DNA of 64,000 bases, taken from the NCBI GenBank assembly GCA_944390575.1, contig CALXQJ010000002.1, forward strand, positions 434,001-498,000, read 5' to 3'. Below the pieces are notes generated by a model, which worked only from the letters and a program-made list of their open reading frames with translations, had not been told where the DNA came from and did no database searches. Shown piece after piece: positions 31,696 to 40,242 of the stretch. How positions within the stretch are numbered: position 1 is the stretch's first letter; each line of letters starts with the position of its first letter. Source of the stretch: an uncultured Spirochaetota bacterium. Lineage in GTDB: Bacteria; Spirochaetota; Brachyspiria; Brachyspirales; Brachyspiraceae. The translations under genes were made by a program, and so were the position numbers.

Positions 31696-32073
31696 ATGAA
31701 AAATATTATATTTTTAATTTGTATTATTGTTATGCTATCATGTTATAATAAAAATAATGATAGTTCTTTTATAGCATTAGATTCTCCATTATCATTTCAA
31801 AATATAGGTATAAAACAATATATACCAAATGAGGTTAATAATAAAAAATATTATATTGTAAATACAAATATTGCTAAATTAGATTTTATATATCAGAATA
31901 TCGAATATATATATGTTGCCTCTACAAATAGTAATAGTTTATTTGTATATTTAGGTACAAATAGTATTTATTTTTATAATGATACTTTTTATTCTTTTTT
32001 ATCTAAAAAGAATAAATTATCAGATGAAGTACTCAATAAATTGAATATTATTTTTAATATTACTAATAAGTGA
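31696..32073 (+). CDS. Small lipoprotein of unknown function
   Basis: A 125-residue protein with a lipoprotein signal peptide: MKNIIFLICIIVMLSCYNKN, lipid-modified Cys at residue 16. The mature part, about 110 residues, contains ISPL-like hydrophobic strands (KYYIVNTNIAKLDFIYQNIE) and no recognisable domain. Its TGA stop overlaps the GTG start of the GntR regulator (GTGA), so the two are translationally coupled. A membrane-anchored periplasmic or surface location is expected. Confidence 0.72.
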   Translation: MKNIIFLICIIVMLSCYNKNNDSSFIALDSPLSFQNIGIKQYIPNEVNNKKYYIVNTNIAKLDFIYQNIEYIYVASTNSNSLFVYLGTNSIYFYNDTFYSFLSKKNKLSDEVLNKLNIIFNITNK

Positions 32074-32792
32074 AAATGAATTCAAAGTACGAGTATATTT
32101 ATAATTTAATCTTAGATAAAATTAGAAATGGATTTTTTAAAGAGGGAGATACTTTACCAAGTGAGTATACACTTATGAAAGAGTATAATGCCTCAAGAGA
32201 TACTATTAGAAAATCTCTTCAACTTTTATCTAATAATGGGTATATACAAAAAAGTAAAGGTAAGGGTTCTATAATTATAAACTCTGATATATATAATTTT
32301 GAGTTTAATGGTATTTATAGTTTTAAAGAAGTTGCATCAAAGATATATGGTAAAAAAGTAGAGACTATAGTACATAAGTGTGAATATATAAAAGCAGATA
32401 ATTTTATAAAGAAAGTATTAAAACTTAATGATAATAATGATATGATATGGTATATAGAGAGGGTTAGAAATATTGATAATGAAAAAATTATCTTAGATAT
32501 AGATTTTATTAATTCGTATATAATAAAAACTCTTGATAAAAAAATAGTTTCTAATTCTCTATATGAGTATATAGAAAATGAATTAAATCTTAAAATATCG
32601 TATGCAGAGCGAAATATTTTTTGCACATTTCCTACAGACTATGAGAGAAGTTTATTAGATATTAATAATTATAATATGCTTATAACTGTAGAGTCTAAAA
32701 CATTTTTATCAGATACAAGATTATTTCAATATACGCTTTCTAATCATAGACCTGATAAGTTTAGGTTTAAAGATTTCGCAAGAAGAAGATAG
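32070..32792 (+). CDS. treR: GntR/HutC-family regulator, probable trehalose repressor
   Basis: A 240-residue transcription factor with an N-terminal winged helix typical of GntR proteins (YIYNLILDKIRNGFFKEGDTLPSE, then TLMKEYNASRDTIRKSLQLLSNNGYIQKSKGKG) and a C-terminal UTRA ligand domain (IWYIERVRNIDNEKIILDIDF, ISYAERNIF, RPDKFRFKDFARRR). The UTRA ending RPDxFRFxxFARR is typical of TreR, which senses trehalose-6-phosphate. The trehalose PTS and hydrolase genes lie 3.8 kb downstream beyond the reverse-strand DUF445 gene, with a palindromic operator in their promoter. GTG at 32070 overlaps the preceding stop; an ATG two codons later is an alternative start. Confidence 0.82.
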   Translation: MKMNSKYEYIYNLILDKIRNGFFKEGDTLPSEYTLMKEYNASRDTIRKSLQLLSNNGYIQKSKGKGSIIINSDIYNFEFNGIYSFKEVASKIYGKKVETIVHKCEYIKADNFIKKVLKLNDNNDMIWYIERVRNIDNEKIILDIDFINSYIIKTLDKKIVSNSLYEYIENELNLKISYAERNIFCTFPTDYERSLLDINNYNMLITVESKTFLSDTRLFQYTLSNHRPDKFRFKDFARRR

Positions 32793-32794
32793 AA

Positions 32795-35700
32795 TTATAT
32801 TTTTTTTATAGTAGTATTTTTTACTATATTAATAATCATATTTATAAAGTAAACTATTGTGATAATTATTAATATTATAAAAAGTATATTTGATAGAGGT
32901 TTATTTGGATATTTTATTATAGCTAAATAAATACCTACAATACCACCAAAAGCACCATATATTTTTAATCTATTTAAATATTTTTTTGCAAATGAATTAA
33001 ATAAATCTTCTATATTTTTAGGATCCATATTATTTATTTCTTCTTTTGCTATATTTGAAAAATTAATATCATCTATTATTAAGTTAATATTTTCTTTGCA
33101 AGATGATAATACAGTGTTAAATAAATAATTTTTTGTTTCATCATCTATAATATTAGCTATATTAGAAGAGAAGTTTATAAATATATTATTTAATTCAGTA
33201 TTAGCTATTTTTATAAATATTTCATCATTATTAAGTTTATTTATTAAATTATTTATAGAAGTTTTGAACTTATTTATATCTATTATATTTTTATCTTGTA
33301 AGCTTAGTAGAAAATTATCAATATCTTTTTTATAGTTACTTATAAATATATTATTTACTATACTGTCTATGTTTTCTAATATAAAGTTTATTATATTTAA
33401 TTTTTCTAAATGAGCTAATATACTATTATAACTTTTTATATTTGTAATTTCTATAATAGAATTTTTTACATATATAGATACATACTCTAATAAATTATTT
33501 ATATACTTTTTTATTATCTTATTATCTACACTATTAAACAATAATATCATAGATTCTGATATATATTTTTTGTTTCCATAAAAAATATCTTCAATATAAT
33601 TTATCATTATCTCTTTTTTATAAATAGAGTTTCCATTTGTAAACTCAGATACATTTTTTTCTAAAATATTTTCATTAATAAAGCTTGATATTATTGATGT
33701 TAAGTTGTTTTTTATTTCTATTATAAATTTAGGTAGTTTTTTATTTATTATATTATAAACTATATTATGCACTAAATTTCTTGCCATATTAGCAGATGGG
33801 AACTCTCTAATTATAGAATTAACAATATTTTCTATATCATTATTTAGAATCTCTAATAATTTATTTTGTAAGCTACTTACTATATATTCACTATTATGCT
33901 TAAAAATATATATTAGCTCACCATTAAATAATTCTTTTACTTTCTTATTATTTGATTTTATAATAGAATTGTCTAATAATCTATATATAGCAAATCTAAA
34001 ATCTTTAGAGTTTGTAAATTTTAGAATAAAGTATAATATATAGTGTCTCACTTTACTAATGTTATTATCAACATAATCTATAAATAATTTATAAATATTA
34101 TCACTATTTTCTTTTATATATAAAAATAAATACTCTAATATTGATTCAATAATTTCTTTTCTATATTTAATTATTTCATCTTTGCTTATTATATTTTTAG
34201 TATTTTCTAAGTAGTTTATATTTATAATATAATTAATAATATTTTCATTAGATAGAATATTATTTATATTATTTTTTATATATACTATAATTTTATTAAT
34301 ATCTATTTCATCATAATTAGCTATATACTTTAAGAATATTTTATAATTATCCTTTATTATATTATTTTCTATTTCTTCTTTATTACTTATTATTTCTAAT
34401 ATTCCATCACGCTCCATCAATTTATCATTTACAAAGTCTGCCATAGAGTTAGCAAATCTCTCTTTTTCTGAAGCAACAGCACCCCAAAATACTTTTTTCT
34501 TTATTCCAAATAAAGGTTTATATGGCTTAAAAATAGAGTATATAGCAAGTACGTTTGTTATAACTCCAATAGATGCGTATAGTATAGGCTCTATTATATA
34601 ATTAAAAATACCAAAGTTTGTGTTGACATAATTTAGTGGAATAATATAAACAGATATAATGCCAAATATAGCACCTAAAAAAGCACCAACTATATTTATA
34701 GGTTCTAATTCCTTTCCCATAAAATCATTAGCCATGTTTGCTATTTTTTCATTACTAAGTTTATACATATTTTTCTTTATTGTATTTACAACTATAGATT
34801 CTAATATTTTAGATATTATGCTTTTTTCTTTTTCTATAAAGTTAATAATAGATTTATAAGACTGATTATTTATAAACTTATTTATATTATTTTCTTCTTT
34901 TATTATTAATTGATTTAAATAGTTCTCAGAGACTTTTTCTATTAGATTATCTAATAGCTTAAATATAGAGTTTAGTATGTTATCTATATCATTATATATA
35001 TCATACAAATATTTGCTTTTATTATTATCATATATTTTATTTATTATATTTATAATATATTCTTTACTATTTTCCAAAATAGAATATAAATTATTTATGT
35101 GTATACTTTCTAAGTTATCAATTTTATTTAATATCTTTATTTTTAGTGTATTATTTTTGTATATTATGTTTATAGCTTCTTTATATAAAAAGTTGTATAT
35201 ATTATCAATTATTTCTTCATTTATAATATTTTTTAATTTTATAGAAAGAATATTATTTATACAATTATCTGGTATATCATTAAGATTAAATATTATAATG
35301 TTATATATTGAGTTTTTTGCTTTTTCTATATTTACACTATCAAACTTATTTATAATATCAGCTATATTATTTTCTTTTAAATATTGAATTATATTATTTG
35401 TTATAATAATGCTACTATTTTTATTATTTTTATATTCATCTATATATGATATTATTTTTTTTATAATATCATACTTAGAAGATATATTTTGTAAAAAACT
35501 ATTTCTTATAGCATAAGCAATACCTTTAATCAAAATATTATCAATATTTTCAATTTCTTCATCTATAGCATTTTCAATTAAAGAATCAATTTTATTTTTA
35601 TTTTCTTCTATAAGAGTTATTATAGTATCTATAAGTTTTGGAAAATTATTTTTTAATATTTCTTGTAATTTTATAGATATATTATCATCTAATATTTCAT

Positions 35701-36514
35701 ATATTGTTTTATTTGTGTTTTTTAATTTATCAATAGCTATATCTAATAAATTATTAATTATATAATGTAGATTTTGATTTTCTGCTATATTTTTTATTAT
35801 ATTTTTTACTTCTATTTTATTTTCTATTTTTAGAATACTATATAAATCATTTTCTATTATATTATTGCAGAGATTATAAAATATTTTTTTAAGTTCAATT
35901 TCTTCAGAGATATTTATTATTAATTTATTTATATCTTTATTAAATAAAAATTTATTTAAAAATTCCTTTATAATTTTATCATATTCTTTTTTATTGCTTG
36001 AGTATGATTTATTTATTATATTGCTTATTAATTTATAATCTTTTTCATAATTTATTATTTCAGAGTATAGTTTATTAATAGAGTAGTAAAAATTTTCTTT
36101 ATCTATTAAGTCTTCCAATTTTATATTTCTTAAAACATAGCTTAGTATATTATCAAGATTATTACTTGTATTATCTTTTATATATTTTCTAAAATTATTT
36201 TTAGTATTTATAAATCCATTAATATTTTTAATTTTTATAGAAGTATTTGATATTATAGATTTTAATGTATTTTGAAAAAAACTTATAAGAGCATTTTCAA
36301 ATATATATTTTTTTATTTCTTTTAGAACAGTATGATAATTAATAATTTTTTCAGATATCATTATAGATACTGCGTCTATAAAATTATTTTTCTCACGTGC
36401 TATAATTCCATTTTTAGAAAATAATTTTTTTAAAGCTATAACATTAGTATAATACCCAGCAACAGCACCGAGAACTCCTGCAAATATTATCTGAAAAAGA
36501 AAAGAGTTTATCAT
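32795..36514 (-). CDS. Giant duplicated DUF445 membrane protein
   Basis: A 1239-residue protein. The N-terminus FQIIFAGVLGAVAGYYTNVIALKKLF followed by FSKNGIIAREKNNFIDAVS is the opening signature of DUF445 proteins, which are normally some 400 residues. A second, closely similar unit begins near residue 625: GAFLGAIFGIISV, SIGVITNVLAIYSIFKPYKPLFGIKK in two blocks, and GAVASEKERFANSMADFVN. A third hydrophobic part closes the protein (KIYGAFGGIVGIYLAI, then a membrane helix pair). Between them lie long helical, Ile/Asn/Lys-rich stretches. It therefore looks like a tandem fusion of two DUF445 units. The family is membrane-bound and of unknown function. It has a strong promoter (36526-36553) and lies between treR and the trehalose genes. 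Confidence 0.75.
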   Translation of the reverse strand: MINSFLFQIIFAGVLGAVAGYYTNVIALKKLFSKNGIIAREKNNFIDAVSIMISEKIINYHTVLKEIKKYIFENALISFFQNTLKSIISNTSIKIKNINGFINTKNNFRKYIKDNTSNNLDNILSYVLRNIKLEDLIDKENFYYSINKLYSEIINYEKDYKLISNIINKSYSSNKKEYDKIIKEFLNKFLFNKDINKLIINISEEIELKKIFYNLCNNIIENDLYSILKIENKIEVKNIIKNIAENQNLHYIINNLLDIAIDKLKNTNKTIYEILDDNISIKLQEILKNNFPKLIDTIITLIEENKNKIDSLIENAIDEEIENIDNILIKGIAYAIRNSFLQNISSKYDIIKKIISYIDEYKNNKNSSIIITNNIIQYLKENNIADIINKFDSVNIEKAKNSIYNIIIFNLNDIPDNCINNILSIKLKNIINEEIIDNIYNFLYKEAINIIYKNNTLKIKILNKIDNLESIHINNLYSILENSKEYIINIINKIYDNNKSKYLYDIYNDIDNILNSIFKLLDNLIEKVSENYLNQLIIKEENNINKFINNQSYKSIINFIEKEKSIISKILESIVVNTIKKNMYKLSNEKIANMANDFMGKELEPINIVGAFLGAIFGIISVYIIPLNYVNTNFGIFNYIIEPILYASIGVITNVLAIYSIFKPYKPLFGIKKKVFWGAVASEKERFANSMADFVNDKLMERDGILEIISNKEEIENNIIKDNYKIFLKYIANYDEIDINKIIVYIKNNINNILSNENIINYIININYLENTKNIISKDEIIKYRKEIIESILEYLFLYIKENSDNIYKLFIDYVDNNISKVRHYILYFILKFTNSKDFRFAIYRLLDNSIIKSNNKKVKELFNGELIYIFKHNSEYIVSSLQNKLLEILNNDIENIVNSIIREFPSANMARNLVHNIVYNIINKKLPKFIIEIKNNLTSIISSFINENILEKNVSEFTNGNSIYKKEIMINYIEDIFYGNKKYISESMILLFNSVDNKIIKKYINNLLEYVSIYVKNSIIEITNIKSYNSILAHLEKLNIINFILENIDSIVNNIFISNYKKDIDNFLLSLQDKNIIDINKFKTSINNLINKLNNDEIFIKIANTELNNIFINFSSNIANIIDDETKNYLFNTVLSSCKENINLIIDDINFSNIAKEEINNMDPKNIEDLFNSFAKKYLNRLKIYGAFGGIVGIYLAIIKYPNKPLSNILFIILIIITIVYFINMIINIVKNTTIKKI

Positions 36515-36525
36515 AAGATATTTTT

Positions 36526-36553
36526 ATTATATTCTATAACTAAAAATTGTCAA
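36526..36553 (-). promoter_or_regulatory. Promoter of the DUF445 gene
   Basis: On the reverse strand a perfect TTGACA (36553-36548) and a perfect TATAAT (36531-36526) are 16 bases apart, beginning 12 bases upstream of the ATG at 36514, so the transcript leader would be very short or absent. Confidence 0.7.
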
Positions 36554-36582: not shown

Positions 36583-36611
36583 TTGACAAAGTTGTACGTA
36601 CATGTTGTAAT
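36583..36611 (+). promoter_or_regulatory. Trehalose operon promoter with internal operator palindrome
   Basis: TTGACA (36583-36588), a 17-base spacer and TGTAAT (36606-36611) form a near-consensus promoter 33 bases before the start of the PTS gene. The spacer holds the perfect palindrome TGTACGTACA (36593-36602), resembling TGTATATACA-type TreR operators of Firmicutes. A repressor bound there would block polymerase. This is the expected target of the GntR regulator encoded at 32070-32792. Confidence 0.75.
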
Positions 36612-36643
36612 ATATTTTAGTATTGTAAGTAGAGGGTATTTCT

Positions 36644-38542
36644 ATGGGAAAATTTACTAAAGATGTTAATTTATTAATTGAGTATTTGGGTGGTAAGGAT
36701 AATATAAAGGCAGTAACGCATTGTATGACAAGAATGCGTTTTGTACTTATAGACGAAAAAAAAGCAAATATAAAATCTATAGAGAACTTACAATATACAA
36801 AAGGCACTTTTACACAGTCGGGTCAGTTTCAAGTTATTATAGGAAATGATGTTTTAGAATATTATAATGAGTTTATACAAATTTCGGGTATAGAGGGTGT
36901 TAGTAAAGAGAAAATAAAAGAAGATGCTAAAGGCAATCAAACTTTATTACAGCGTTTAATGTCAAATCTTGCTGAGATATTTTCACCTCTTATTCCTGCT
37001 ATTATTTGTGGTGGATTTATTTTAGGTTTTAGAAATATTATATCTGATATAAAGTTTTTAGAAGATGGTACAAAGTCATTAGTAGAGATTTCACAGTTTT
37101 GGTCTGGAGTTAATTCTTTTTTATGGCTTATAGGTGAGGCTATATTTCATTTTTTACCAGTTGGTATAACTTGGTCTATAACAAGAAAAATGGGTACCAC
37201 TCAGATTTTAGGTATTGTACTTGGTATTACACTTGTATCCCCTCAGCTTGTTAATGCATATTTAGTTGGTAGTGTAGAGGCTAAGTTTTATGATTTTGGA
37301 TTTTTTTTAATGCCTATGGTTGGCTATCAGGCACAGGTTATACCTGCTATAATGACTGGTTTTATATTAGTTTATCTTGAGAAATTTTTTAGAAAAATTA
37401 CTCCTGAGTATATATCTATGGTTGTAGTTCCTTTTGCTACTTTAATCCCTACGGTTTTTATAGCACATGCTGTAGTAGGTCCTATAGGTTGGAAGATAGG
37501 CGACTTTATTTCTTCTATTGTATATGCAGGACTTAATTCTAATTTTAGAGTAGTGTTTGCAGGTATATTTGGTTTTTTATATGCTCCACTTGTTATTACA
37601 GGTTTGCACCATTTATCAAATGCTATAGACTTACAATTAATGAGTCAGTTTGGAGGCACTATACTTTGGCCTATGATTGCATTGTCAAATATAGCACAAG
37701 GTTCATCTGTTTTAGCTATGTCTTTATTACAAAAGAAAAATAATAAAGCGAAACAAGTTAATATACCAGCTTTAATATCTTGTTATCTTGGAGTTACAGA
37801 GCCTGCTTTATTTGGTGTAAACTTAAAATATGGTTTTCCATTTGTTTGTGCTTTAATAGGTTCATCACTTGCTGCTATTACTTCAGTTGGATTTAAGGTT
37901 ATGGCTACATCTATAGGTATTGGTGGTATACCTGGTATTTTATCTATTAAACCACAGTTTATATTACAGTTTTTTATAGCTATGATGGTTTCTATTTGTG
38001 TTCCTTTTATACTTACACTTATAGTTGGAAAAAAGAAATTATCATTAGAGGATTTAGTTTCTGTAGATATAGATTCTGATTGTTTTAATATTGATAATGA
38101 TGATTTTGTATCTCCTATGAGTGGTAAATTATATAAGCTATCTGATATATCTGATGAAGGTTTTGCTTCTGGTGCTTTAGGAGAAGGTTTTGCTATTGAG
38201 ATTGATGATAATAAAATAATATCTCCTTGTGATGGTGTTATAGTATCTACATTTCCTACTAATCATGCTTATGGTATAGAAAATACAAATGGTAAAGAGA
38301 TTTTAATACATATTGGTATGGATACTGTTGAACTTAAAGGGGAGGGATTTACTTCTTTTGTAAGTATTGGGGATAAAGTAAGAAAGGGCGATATTATAGC
38401 GAGAGTAGATTTAGATTTTGTTAGAAATAATAATAAGTCTTTAGTATCTCCTGTTGTATTTACAGATGGTAGCAAAATAGAGTTGTTAAAGAGTGATTGT
38501 AGTGTACGACATGGTGAAGGTAATATTATAAAAATAAATTAA
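36644..38542 (+). CDS. treP: Trehalose-type PTS permease, EIIBCA fusion
   Basis: A 632-residue phosphotransferase permease. The EIIB domain comes first with the phosphorylated cysteine at residue 27 (AVTHCMTRMRF). The EIIC domain follows with about ten membrane helices from residue 105 to 465, including GLHHLSNAIDLQLM and YLGVTEPALFGVNLKYGFP. A glucose-type EIIA domain ends the protein (VSPMSGKLYKLSDI, then LIHIGMDTVELKGEGF with active His 556). The order B-C-A and the adjacent trehalose-6-phosphate hydrolase identify the trehalose/sucrose branch of the glucose superfamily. It imports trehalose as trehalose-6-phosphate. AGAGGG precedes the ATG. Many trehalose permeases lack EIIA, so having it makes this one self-contained. 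Confidence 0.88.
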   Translation: MGKFTKDVNLLIEYLGGKDNIKAVTHCMTRMRFVLIDEKKANIKSIENLQYTKGTFTQSGQFQVIIGNDVLEYYNEFIQISGIEGVSKEKIKEDAKGNQTLLQRLMSNLAEIFSPLIPAIICGGFILGFRNIISDIKFLEDGTKSLVEISQFWSGVNSFLWLIGEAIFHFLPVGITWSITRKMGTTQILGIVLGITLVSPQLVNAYLVGSVEAKFYDFGFFLMPMVGYQAQVIPAIMTGFILVYLEKFFRKITPEYISMVVVPFATLIPTVFIAHAVVGPIGWKIGDFISSIVYAGLNSNFRVVFAGIFGFLYAPLVITGLHHLSNAIDLQLMSQFGGTILWPMIALSNIAQGSSVLAMSLLQKKNNKAKQVNIPALISCYLGVTEPALFGVNLKYGFPFVCALIGSSLAAITSVGFKVMATSIGIGGIPGILSIKPQFILQFFIAMMVSICVPFILTLIVGKKKLSLEDLVSVDIDSDCFNIDNDDFVSPMSGKLYKLSDISDEGFASGALGEGFAIEIDDNKIISPCDGVIVSTFPTNHAYGIENTNGKEILIHIGMDTVELKGEGFTSFVSIGDKVRKGDIIARVDLDFVRNNNKSLVSPVVFTDGSKIELLKSDCSVRHGEGNIIKIN

Positions 38543-38556
38543 TAAGGTATTTTATT

Positions 38557-40242
38557 ATGAGCTTTAAAGATAAAGTTGTTTATCAAATATATCCTAAGTC
38601 TTTTATGGATAGTAATAATGATGGTATTGGTGATATTAGAGGTATTATATCTAAGTTGGATTATTTAAAAGATTTAGGTGTTGATATTATTTGGACTACA
38701 CCATTTTTTGTATCCCCTCAAAATGATAATGGTTATGATGTTGCTGACTATTATAATGTTGATCCTATATATGGTAGTATGTCTGATGTTGAGGAGCTTA
38801 TAAGAGAAGCTAAGAATAGAAATATAGATATTATGTTTGATATGGTTTTTAATCATACATCTACTTATCATCATTGGTTTCAAAAAGCTTTATCTGGAGA
38901 TGAAAAATATAAGAGTTTTTATATATTTAAAAAGGGTAGGGTTGTTAATGGAAAATTAGAAGCTCCTACTAATTGGAAGTCTAAGTTTGGTGGTAGTGCT
39001 TGGGAGTATGTAGAGAAATTTAATGAGTATTATTTACATTTATTTGATGTTACTCAGGCTGATTTAAATTGGGATAATGAAGAAGTTCGAAATGAGATAT
39101 ACAAAATAGTTAATTTTTGGATAGAAAAGGGAGTTTATGGTTTTAGATTTGATGTTGTAAATCTTATTTCTAAACCTCAAGTTTTTGAGGATGATTTACT
39201 TGGAGGATTTGAGGGAGATGGTAGAAGATTTTATACTGATGGAGTTAATATACATAAATACTTAAAAGAGCTTAATAGAAATACTTTTGGTAGGTATGAT
39301 AATTCTATAACTGTTGGTGAGATGTCATCTACTACTATTGATAATTGTATAAAATATGCTGGTGAAGATGAGAATGAACTTAGTATGGTATTTAATTTTC
39401 ATCATTTAAAAGTAGACTATAAAGATAAAGATAAGTGGCAATTAATGGATTTTGATTTTTTAGCCCTTAAAGATATTCTTTTCTCTTGGCAGGAGGGTAT
39501 GCAAGATGGCAATGCTTGGTCTGCTTTATTTTGGTGTAATCATGATCAACCTCGTATAGTTTCAAGGTTTGGAGATGATAAGAGATATCATAAAGAATCT
39601 GCTAAGATGCTTGCTACTGTTGTTCATACTTTAAGAGGAACTCCTTATATTTATCAGGGTGAAGAGATTGGTATGACTAATGCTTATTTTGATAGTATTG
39701 ATAAGTATAGAGATGTTGAATCTATTAATTATTTTAATATTTTAAAAGAAAAAAATATTAAAGAAGAAGATATATATAAAATACTAAGTGAACGTTCAAG
39801 AGATAATTCTCGAACACCTATGCAGTGGAATAGTGGTAATAAGAATGCAGGATTTTCTAATGCTTCTTCTACTTGGATAGATGTTACTCATAATTATAAA
39901 TATATAAATGTAGAGGATTCTTTAAAGGATGAAAACTCTATATTAAATCATTATAAAAAGCTAATTAAACTTCGTAAGGAATATAAATCTATTTCTGAAG
40001 GTAGAATAGTACCTTTATTAAAGTCTGATAAGAATGTTTTAGCATTTATGAGAAGATATGATGAGTTGAATGAAAAAATATTAGTTATTAATAATTTTTA
40101 TGGGAGAGAAGTTAATATCTATCTATACTTTAATATTGAAAATTATAAGTGTATATTATCTAATTATAGTATAGATAGAGATATAACTAATAATATGACA
40201 TTAAAACCTTATGAGTCTTTGGTATTTTATAAGAATCAATAA
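38557..40242 (+). CDS. treA: Trehalose-6-phosphate hydrolase (alpha,alpha-phosphotrehalase), GH13
   Basis: A 561-residue GH13 enzyme. Conserved blocks are DGIGDIRGIISKLDYLKDLGVD, the region I DMVFNH at residue 95-100, catalytic nucleophile Asp199 in YGFRFDVVN, acid/base Glu255 in TVGEMS, and Asp330 in NHDQPR. Also typical of phosphotrehalases are SRDNSRTPMQWN and TPYIYQGEEIGMTN. The enzyme cleaves imported trehalose-6-phosphate into glucose and glucose-6-phosphate in the cytoplasm. The gene starts 15 bases after the permease with AAGG upstream. Oligo-1,6-glucosidases of the same family look similar, but the PTS partner decides the assignment. Confidence 0.88.
   Translation: MSFKDKVVYQIYPKSFMDSNNDGIGDIRGIISKLDYLKDLGVDIIWTTPFFVSPQNDNGYDVADYYNVDPIYGSMSDVEELIREAKNRNIDIMFDMVFNHTSTYHHWFQKALSGDEKYKSFYIFKKGRVVNGKLEAPTNWKSKFGGSAWEYVEKFNEYYLHLFDVTQADLNWDNEEVRNEIYKIVNFWIEKGVYGFRFDVVNLISKPQVFEDDLLGGFEGDGRRFYTDGVNIHKYLKELNRNTFGRYDNSITVGEMSSTTIDNCIKYAGEDENELSMVFNFHHLKVDYKDKDKWQLMDFDFLALKDILFSWQEGMQDGNAWSALFWCNHDQPRIVSRFGDDKRYHKESAKMLATVVHTLRGTPYIYQGEEIGMTNAYFDSIDKYRDVESINYFNILKEKNIKEEDIYKILSERSRDNSRTPMQWNSGNKNAGFSNASSTWIDVTHNYKYINVEDSLKDENSILNHYKKLIKLRKEYKSISEGRIVPLLKSDKNVLAFMRRYDELNEKILVINNFYGREVNIYLYFNIENYKCILSNYSIDRDITNNMTLKPYESLVFYKNQ

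Follow-up and report, generated by a model that had tools for sequence, protein, structure and literature searches.

What controls the trehalose genes of this uncultured spirochaete, and is the palindrome in front of them an operator? The window, by which we mean the whole stretch of 64,000 nucleotides analysed, carries treP and treC behind a promoter whose spacer contains the perfect palindrome TGTACGTACA. Our reading, to which we give a probability of about 0.93, is that TreR uses TGTACGTACA as its operator at the promoter of treP-treC. The features on which the argument draws are as follows.

32076 to 32792, plus strand: treR, encoding a GntR/HutC-type (UTRA) trehalose operon repressor (TIGR02404, 256.8 bits against a cut-off of 211.95; PF07702 and PF00392).
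32795 to 36514, minus strand: DUF445 gene (PF04286) between treR and treP, outside the switch.
36583 to 36588, plus strand: -35 box TTGACA of the treP promoter, from the letters; invariant in 10/10 relatives.
36593 to 36602, no strand: predicted operator O1, the perfect palindrome TGTACGTACA in the promoter spacer, from the letters; in the 10 relatives, TGTACGTATA occupies this place.
36606 to 36611, plus strand: -10 box TGTAAT, from the letters, after a 17-bp spacer and with TG before the box.
36608 to 36613, plus strand: rival -10 box TAATAT, from the letters, after a 19-bp spacer.
36624 to 36633, no strand: TGTAAGTAGA, a possible but weak second operator with two mismatches to the operator.
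36644 to 38542, plus strand: treP, encoding a trehalose PTS transporter (EIIBC) whose C-terminus carries a fused EIIA (TIGR01992, 658 bits against a cut-off of 591.95; PF00358 at residues 488-610).
38557 to 40242, plus strand: treC, encoding trehalose-6-phosphate hydrolase (TIGR02403, 831 bits against a cut-off of 799.05).

The scores of treR, treP, and treC all exceed curated equivalog cut-offs. An initial annotation of this DNA had placed a TreR-type regulator 3.8 kb upstream of the palindrome; the end of the regulator gene indeed lies there, and its product passes the TIGR02404 cut-off. Alignment with relatives favors the ATG at 32076 over the GTG at 32070 as the start of treR. TreR is the one UTRA protein found in the whole genome, which holds two GntR proteins over the cut-off, and the nearest solved chain by sequence, 2ogg, is named trehalose operon transcriptional repressor and matches its effector part. 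A PTS EIIBC paralogue of treP (35%) was also observed at G000:C16:34505-35911 (L032), with one TAA stop within the match.

The letters agree with the initial annotation that a perfect palindrome lies between TTGACA and TGTAAT: TGTACGTACA sits at 36593-36602 in the 17-nt spacer, and treP starts 41 bp downstream of it. TTGACA is the consensus box that had been noted, whereas the -10 box is weaker than implied: TGTAAT has no A at position 2, and TAATAT, two bases on, is a rival. In the relatives, TAATAT or a near form stands at 17 bp from the -35 box. TTGACA-17-TGTAAT was absent from the output of a promoter scan of the window because TGTAAT lacks the A at -10 position 2 that the scan demands. 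Further upstream, at 36526-36553 on the minus strand, is a perfect TTGACA-16-TATAAT promoter (12/12), facing the DUF445 gene and away from treP. Downstream of O1, TGTAAGTAGA is centered 31 bp from the center of O1 and overlaps the likely ribosome-binding site AGAGGG; sites that, like it, carry two mismatches are expected at 0.028 per 60 positions.

Palindromy alone is nothing special here, because the window contains 136 perfect 10-nt palindromes, nine of which, TGTACGTACA among them, have four or more G/C. By a first-order Markov estimate, 0.005 copies of TGTACGTACA are expected per window and 0.16 per 2.0-Mb genome; one was observed in the window and two in the genome. The second exact copy lies inside the coding frame of a 484-aa ORF, presumably pyruvate kinase from a reading of its translation. 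At up to one mismatch the genome has 45 places (2 exact, 43 with one mismatch), 44 of them in coding frames, and the tre site is the sole intergenic one. Automatic ORF assignment had placed 42 of the 45 within ORFs, so that three were provisionally intergenic; among these, C16:2756 was rejected as an intergenic operator since it reads as an open coding frame, and C16:31261 since it falls within a 509-aa frame. Further sites before sugar genes, which had been proposed as a check, are not supported: no second intergenic place with up to one mismatch occurs in the window's genome, and a wider TreR regulon is rejected at this threshold by the genome-wide scan. As far as the letters tell, O1 would control the tre operon alone. 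What raises TGTACGTACA above chance is its position together with its conservation.

That conservation was followed through 26 genomes of the genus Brachyspira. The nearest relatives of TreR are those of B. innocens and uncultured Brachyspira, and on this ground we assign the window to Brachyspira. Besides the window's genome, nine others carry a full treP orthologue (77-78% identity); in G020, treP is cut by a contig end, and in G018 it survives as decayed pieces. The remaining 14 of the 26 genomes have no treP orthologue, their matches being paralogues or shared domains. Orthologues of treR (69-70%) occur in the same genomes as treP, and G018 retains a 30-residue remnant. The "10 relatives" referred to here are the nine genomes with full treP plus G020. 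The initial annotation had staked its proposal on conservation before treP in relatives, and the site is kept in 10/10 of these genomes: each treP promoter reads TTGACA, a spacer with TGTACGTATA, a -10 box, and then a second operator copy, the operator centers being 18 bp apart. The first operator of the relatives is one mismatch from a perfect palindrome, and the second is TGTACGTACA, perfect in 9/10 and replaced by TATACGTACA in G020; in G017, the second operator, which contains an ATG in frame with treP, was counted as promoter. Across the 10 relatives, the 40-bp block from TTGACA has 37 invariant columns, compared with 20/43 in the left flank and 13/37 in the right, and mean pairwise identity is 0.98 in the block vs 0.70 outside it. 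Because the relatives are close kin, conservation in 10/10 does not amount to ten independent tests.

Three further observations concern the genus. The 11-mer TTGTACGTAYA shows no genome-wide enrichment in Brachyspira (53 places, 21 of which fall at tre promoters, as against 101 places for the reversed 11-mer used as control). At L089 (G006:C4:1115404), an intergenic TTGTACGTATA follows TTGCAA in a genome with neither a treP nor a treR orthologue and may be another regulator's site. A decayed tre locus, with a treR remnant and broken treP pieces, is seen at L058 (G018 contig C85) and L118, and no operator was seen there.

The same word recurs beyond the genus. A scan based on the TreR alignment, with patterns that included the peptide DTIRKSLQ, reached 17 loci: 5 from Brachyspira, 10 from Gottfriedia/Bacillus (L105-L114), and 2 from Tissierella. 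All ten Gottfriedia/Bacillus loci have two copies of TGTACGTACA in front of treP, spaced 25 bp apart, the first of them within the promoter spacer (e.g., TTGCAA-17-TATACT); these loci are closely related among themselves. The recognition-helix stretch SRDTIRKSLQ is identical in eight aligned regulators, which proves little because the loci were picked partly by the DTIRKSLQ pattern. In both Tissierella loci, a pair of TGTACGTACA 26 bp apart precedes another gene (L116 near 5025, L117 near 8295), which in L117 encodes a 523-aa membrane protein, and a TreR-like regulator lies some 3 kb from the pair. Because the Tissierella pair precedes a different gene, TGTACGTACA is not unique to trehalose, and further regulators of this kind may also use it.

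A broader sample of Bacilli comprised 121 genomes, 47 with treP over the cut-off, from which the best 30 loci were examined (L151 = L105). Within 300 bp upstream of treP, exact TGTAYRTACA was present in 17 of these best 30 loci, compared with 0.08 on average across 200 Markov controls, and two exact sites were present in 9/30, a second operator being customary but no defining trait; the exact motif was absent from the other 13. In 13/30 loci, a site with up to one mismatch to TGTACGTACA or TGTATATACA lies inside the promoter spacer. By eye, TTGTCTAGACAA occupies a like place in L165 and L177, as does ACTTATATAGATAAGT in L176 and L179, and no like site was seen in seven loci (L171-L175, L178, and L183).

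Set beside its relatives, the window species differs in several respects. It lacks the second operator or keeps it in a much decayed form, the nearest candidate being TGTAAGTAGA, and the remaining O1 is a perfect palindrome. Loss of the second operator in the window species appears to be the simpler reading, because two operators are often present in Bacilli and always in the ten relatives. The relatives' treR has its own TTTACA-17-TATAAT promoter (10/10); this is absent from the window, where treR begins immediately behind the stop codon of a 125-aa ORF. Control of treR by its own product through the operator motif was rejected because the motif is absent before treR: TGTA-NN-TACA occurs nowhere in up to 300 bp upstream in 10/10 relatives (149 bp in G015), and the window's 250 bp were inspected by eye. 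The interval from treR to treP seems prone to acquiring genes, since a minus-strand ORF of 239-242 aa lies there in 6/10 relatives (G022, G017, G014, G020, G025, and G015); the window has the DUF445 gene (1239 residues) in its stead. Near full-length relatives of this DUF445 gene occur in six relatives, with a partial match in a seventh, G016, at places other than tre loci. An inherited two-operator switch may have been rebuilt to one operator, the downstream operator having decayed, the spacer operator being a perfect palindrome, treR being read with an unrelated upstream gene, and the DUF445 gene having been inserted between regulator and target. We offer this history tentatively and consider it somewhat doubtful; if it is true, the supply of repressor may have shifted along with the number of operators.

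Given this pattern, could the palindrome be the operator of another regulator, such as the genome's second GntR-type protein? This protein, the product of a 236-aa ORF, passes the family cut-off, the adjoining gene looks by its translation alone like one for a TRAP-type solute-binding protein, which we take it to be, and the Tissierella pair shows the same 10-mer before a different membrane-protein gene. Yet the search of the whole genome found no UTRA domain in it, TGTACGTACA before treP goes with TreR in Bacillaceae, and the Brachyspira genomes with treP are those with a treR orthologue, all of which make such an assignment very improbable. That the word is a functionless chance palindrome in an AT-rich promoter is scarcely credible: the abundance of 10-nt palindromes in the window and the loss of the relatives' second copy would fit it, but the place is kept in 10/10 relatives despite diverged flanks, the Markov expectation is 0.005 copies per window, and the identical word stands before treP in Bacillaceae.

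An unlikely but more serious alternative is that O1 is a TreR site by descent and regulation has been weakened or lost in the window species, because the second operator and the treR promoter are gone. The absence of that second operator, the position of treR right after the stop of the 125-aa ORF without the relatives' promoter, and the off-consensus -10 box are consistent with it; the intact treR frame with its conserved helix argues against it, as does the window's O1, a perfect palindrome where the relatives' O1 has one mismatch. We retain the TreR operator at the treP-treC promoter as the preferred reading. The sequence shows what the regulator is, where the site lies, that it is conserved in Brachyspira, and that it matches the TreR boxes of Bacilli. 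The initial annotation was right about the letters and very probably right about their meaning.

How such a switch would work can be proposed from known TreR proteins, by analogy with which TreR here is expected to bind as a dimer, to repress, and to let go in response to trehalose-6-phosphate. Without trehalose, a TreR dimer would cover the palindrome in the promoter spacer and deny RNA polymerase access. Trehalose entering through TreP would become trehalose-6-phosphate, whose binding to the UTRA domain would release TreR, so that treP-treC could be transcribed. For Brachyspira, which are gut spirochaetes, this provides a concrete, conserved candidate for the operator of a named sugar repressor. 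The treP promoter is usable at once in a gel-shift or reporter test.

The kind of operator is itself known, and what is new is very probably its occurrence in a spirochaete; no paper on such an operator was found among the matches listed for literature on Brachyspira with trehalose or regulation. The tre operator of B. subtilis was reportedly the subject of work by Schoeck and Dahl in 1996 and by Buerklen in 1998. For the TreR of C. difficile, promoter binding and a response to trehalose-6-phosphate as effector are described in the portion of PMC10569727 consulted. Among other Brachyspira (e.g., B. innocens, L115), TTGACA, an operator in the spacer, and treR and treP in one locus are shared with the window, whereas their O1 is TGTACGTATA, a second copy follows 18 bp downstream, and treR has its own promoter. 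The Gottfriedia/Bacillus sp. loci (L105-L114) share the identical TGTACGTACA with its first copy in the spacer, and differ in having two perfect copies 25 bp apart; their TreP can be matched to that of the window up to residue 466-507 of the latter, and the fused EIIA is not matched there. As given in the consulted part of PMC11356801, the B. licheniformis TreR boxes are TTGTATATACAA and ATGTATATACAA, and they resemble the site described here as palindromic TGTA-NN-TACA elements, paired with a TreR-family regulator, before trehalose PTS operon genes; 8/10 letters of the box core equal those of TGTACGTACA. These boxes and the 30 Bacilli loci uphold the likeness to Firmicutes TreR operators that had been noted at the outset. 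The center is TA in B. licheniformis and CG here, there are two sites there and one clear site here, and the window's treR stands away from treP, outside the operon. The spirochaete locus appears to keep the operator logic of Bacilli, which would fit a shared or transferred tre cassette.
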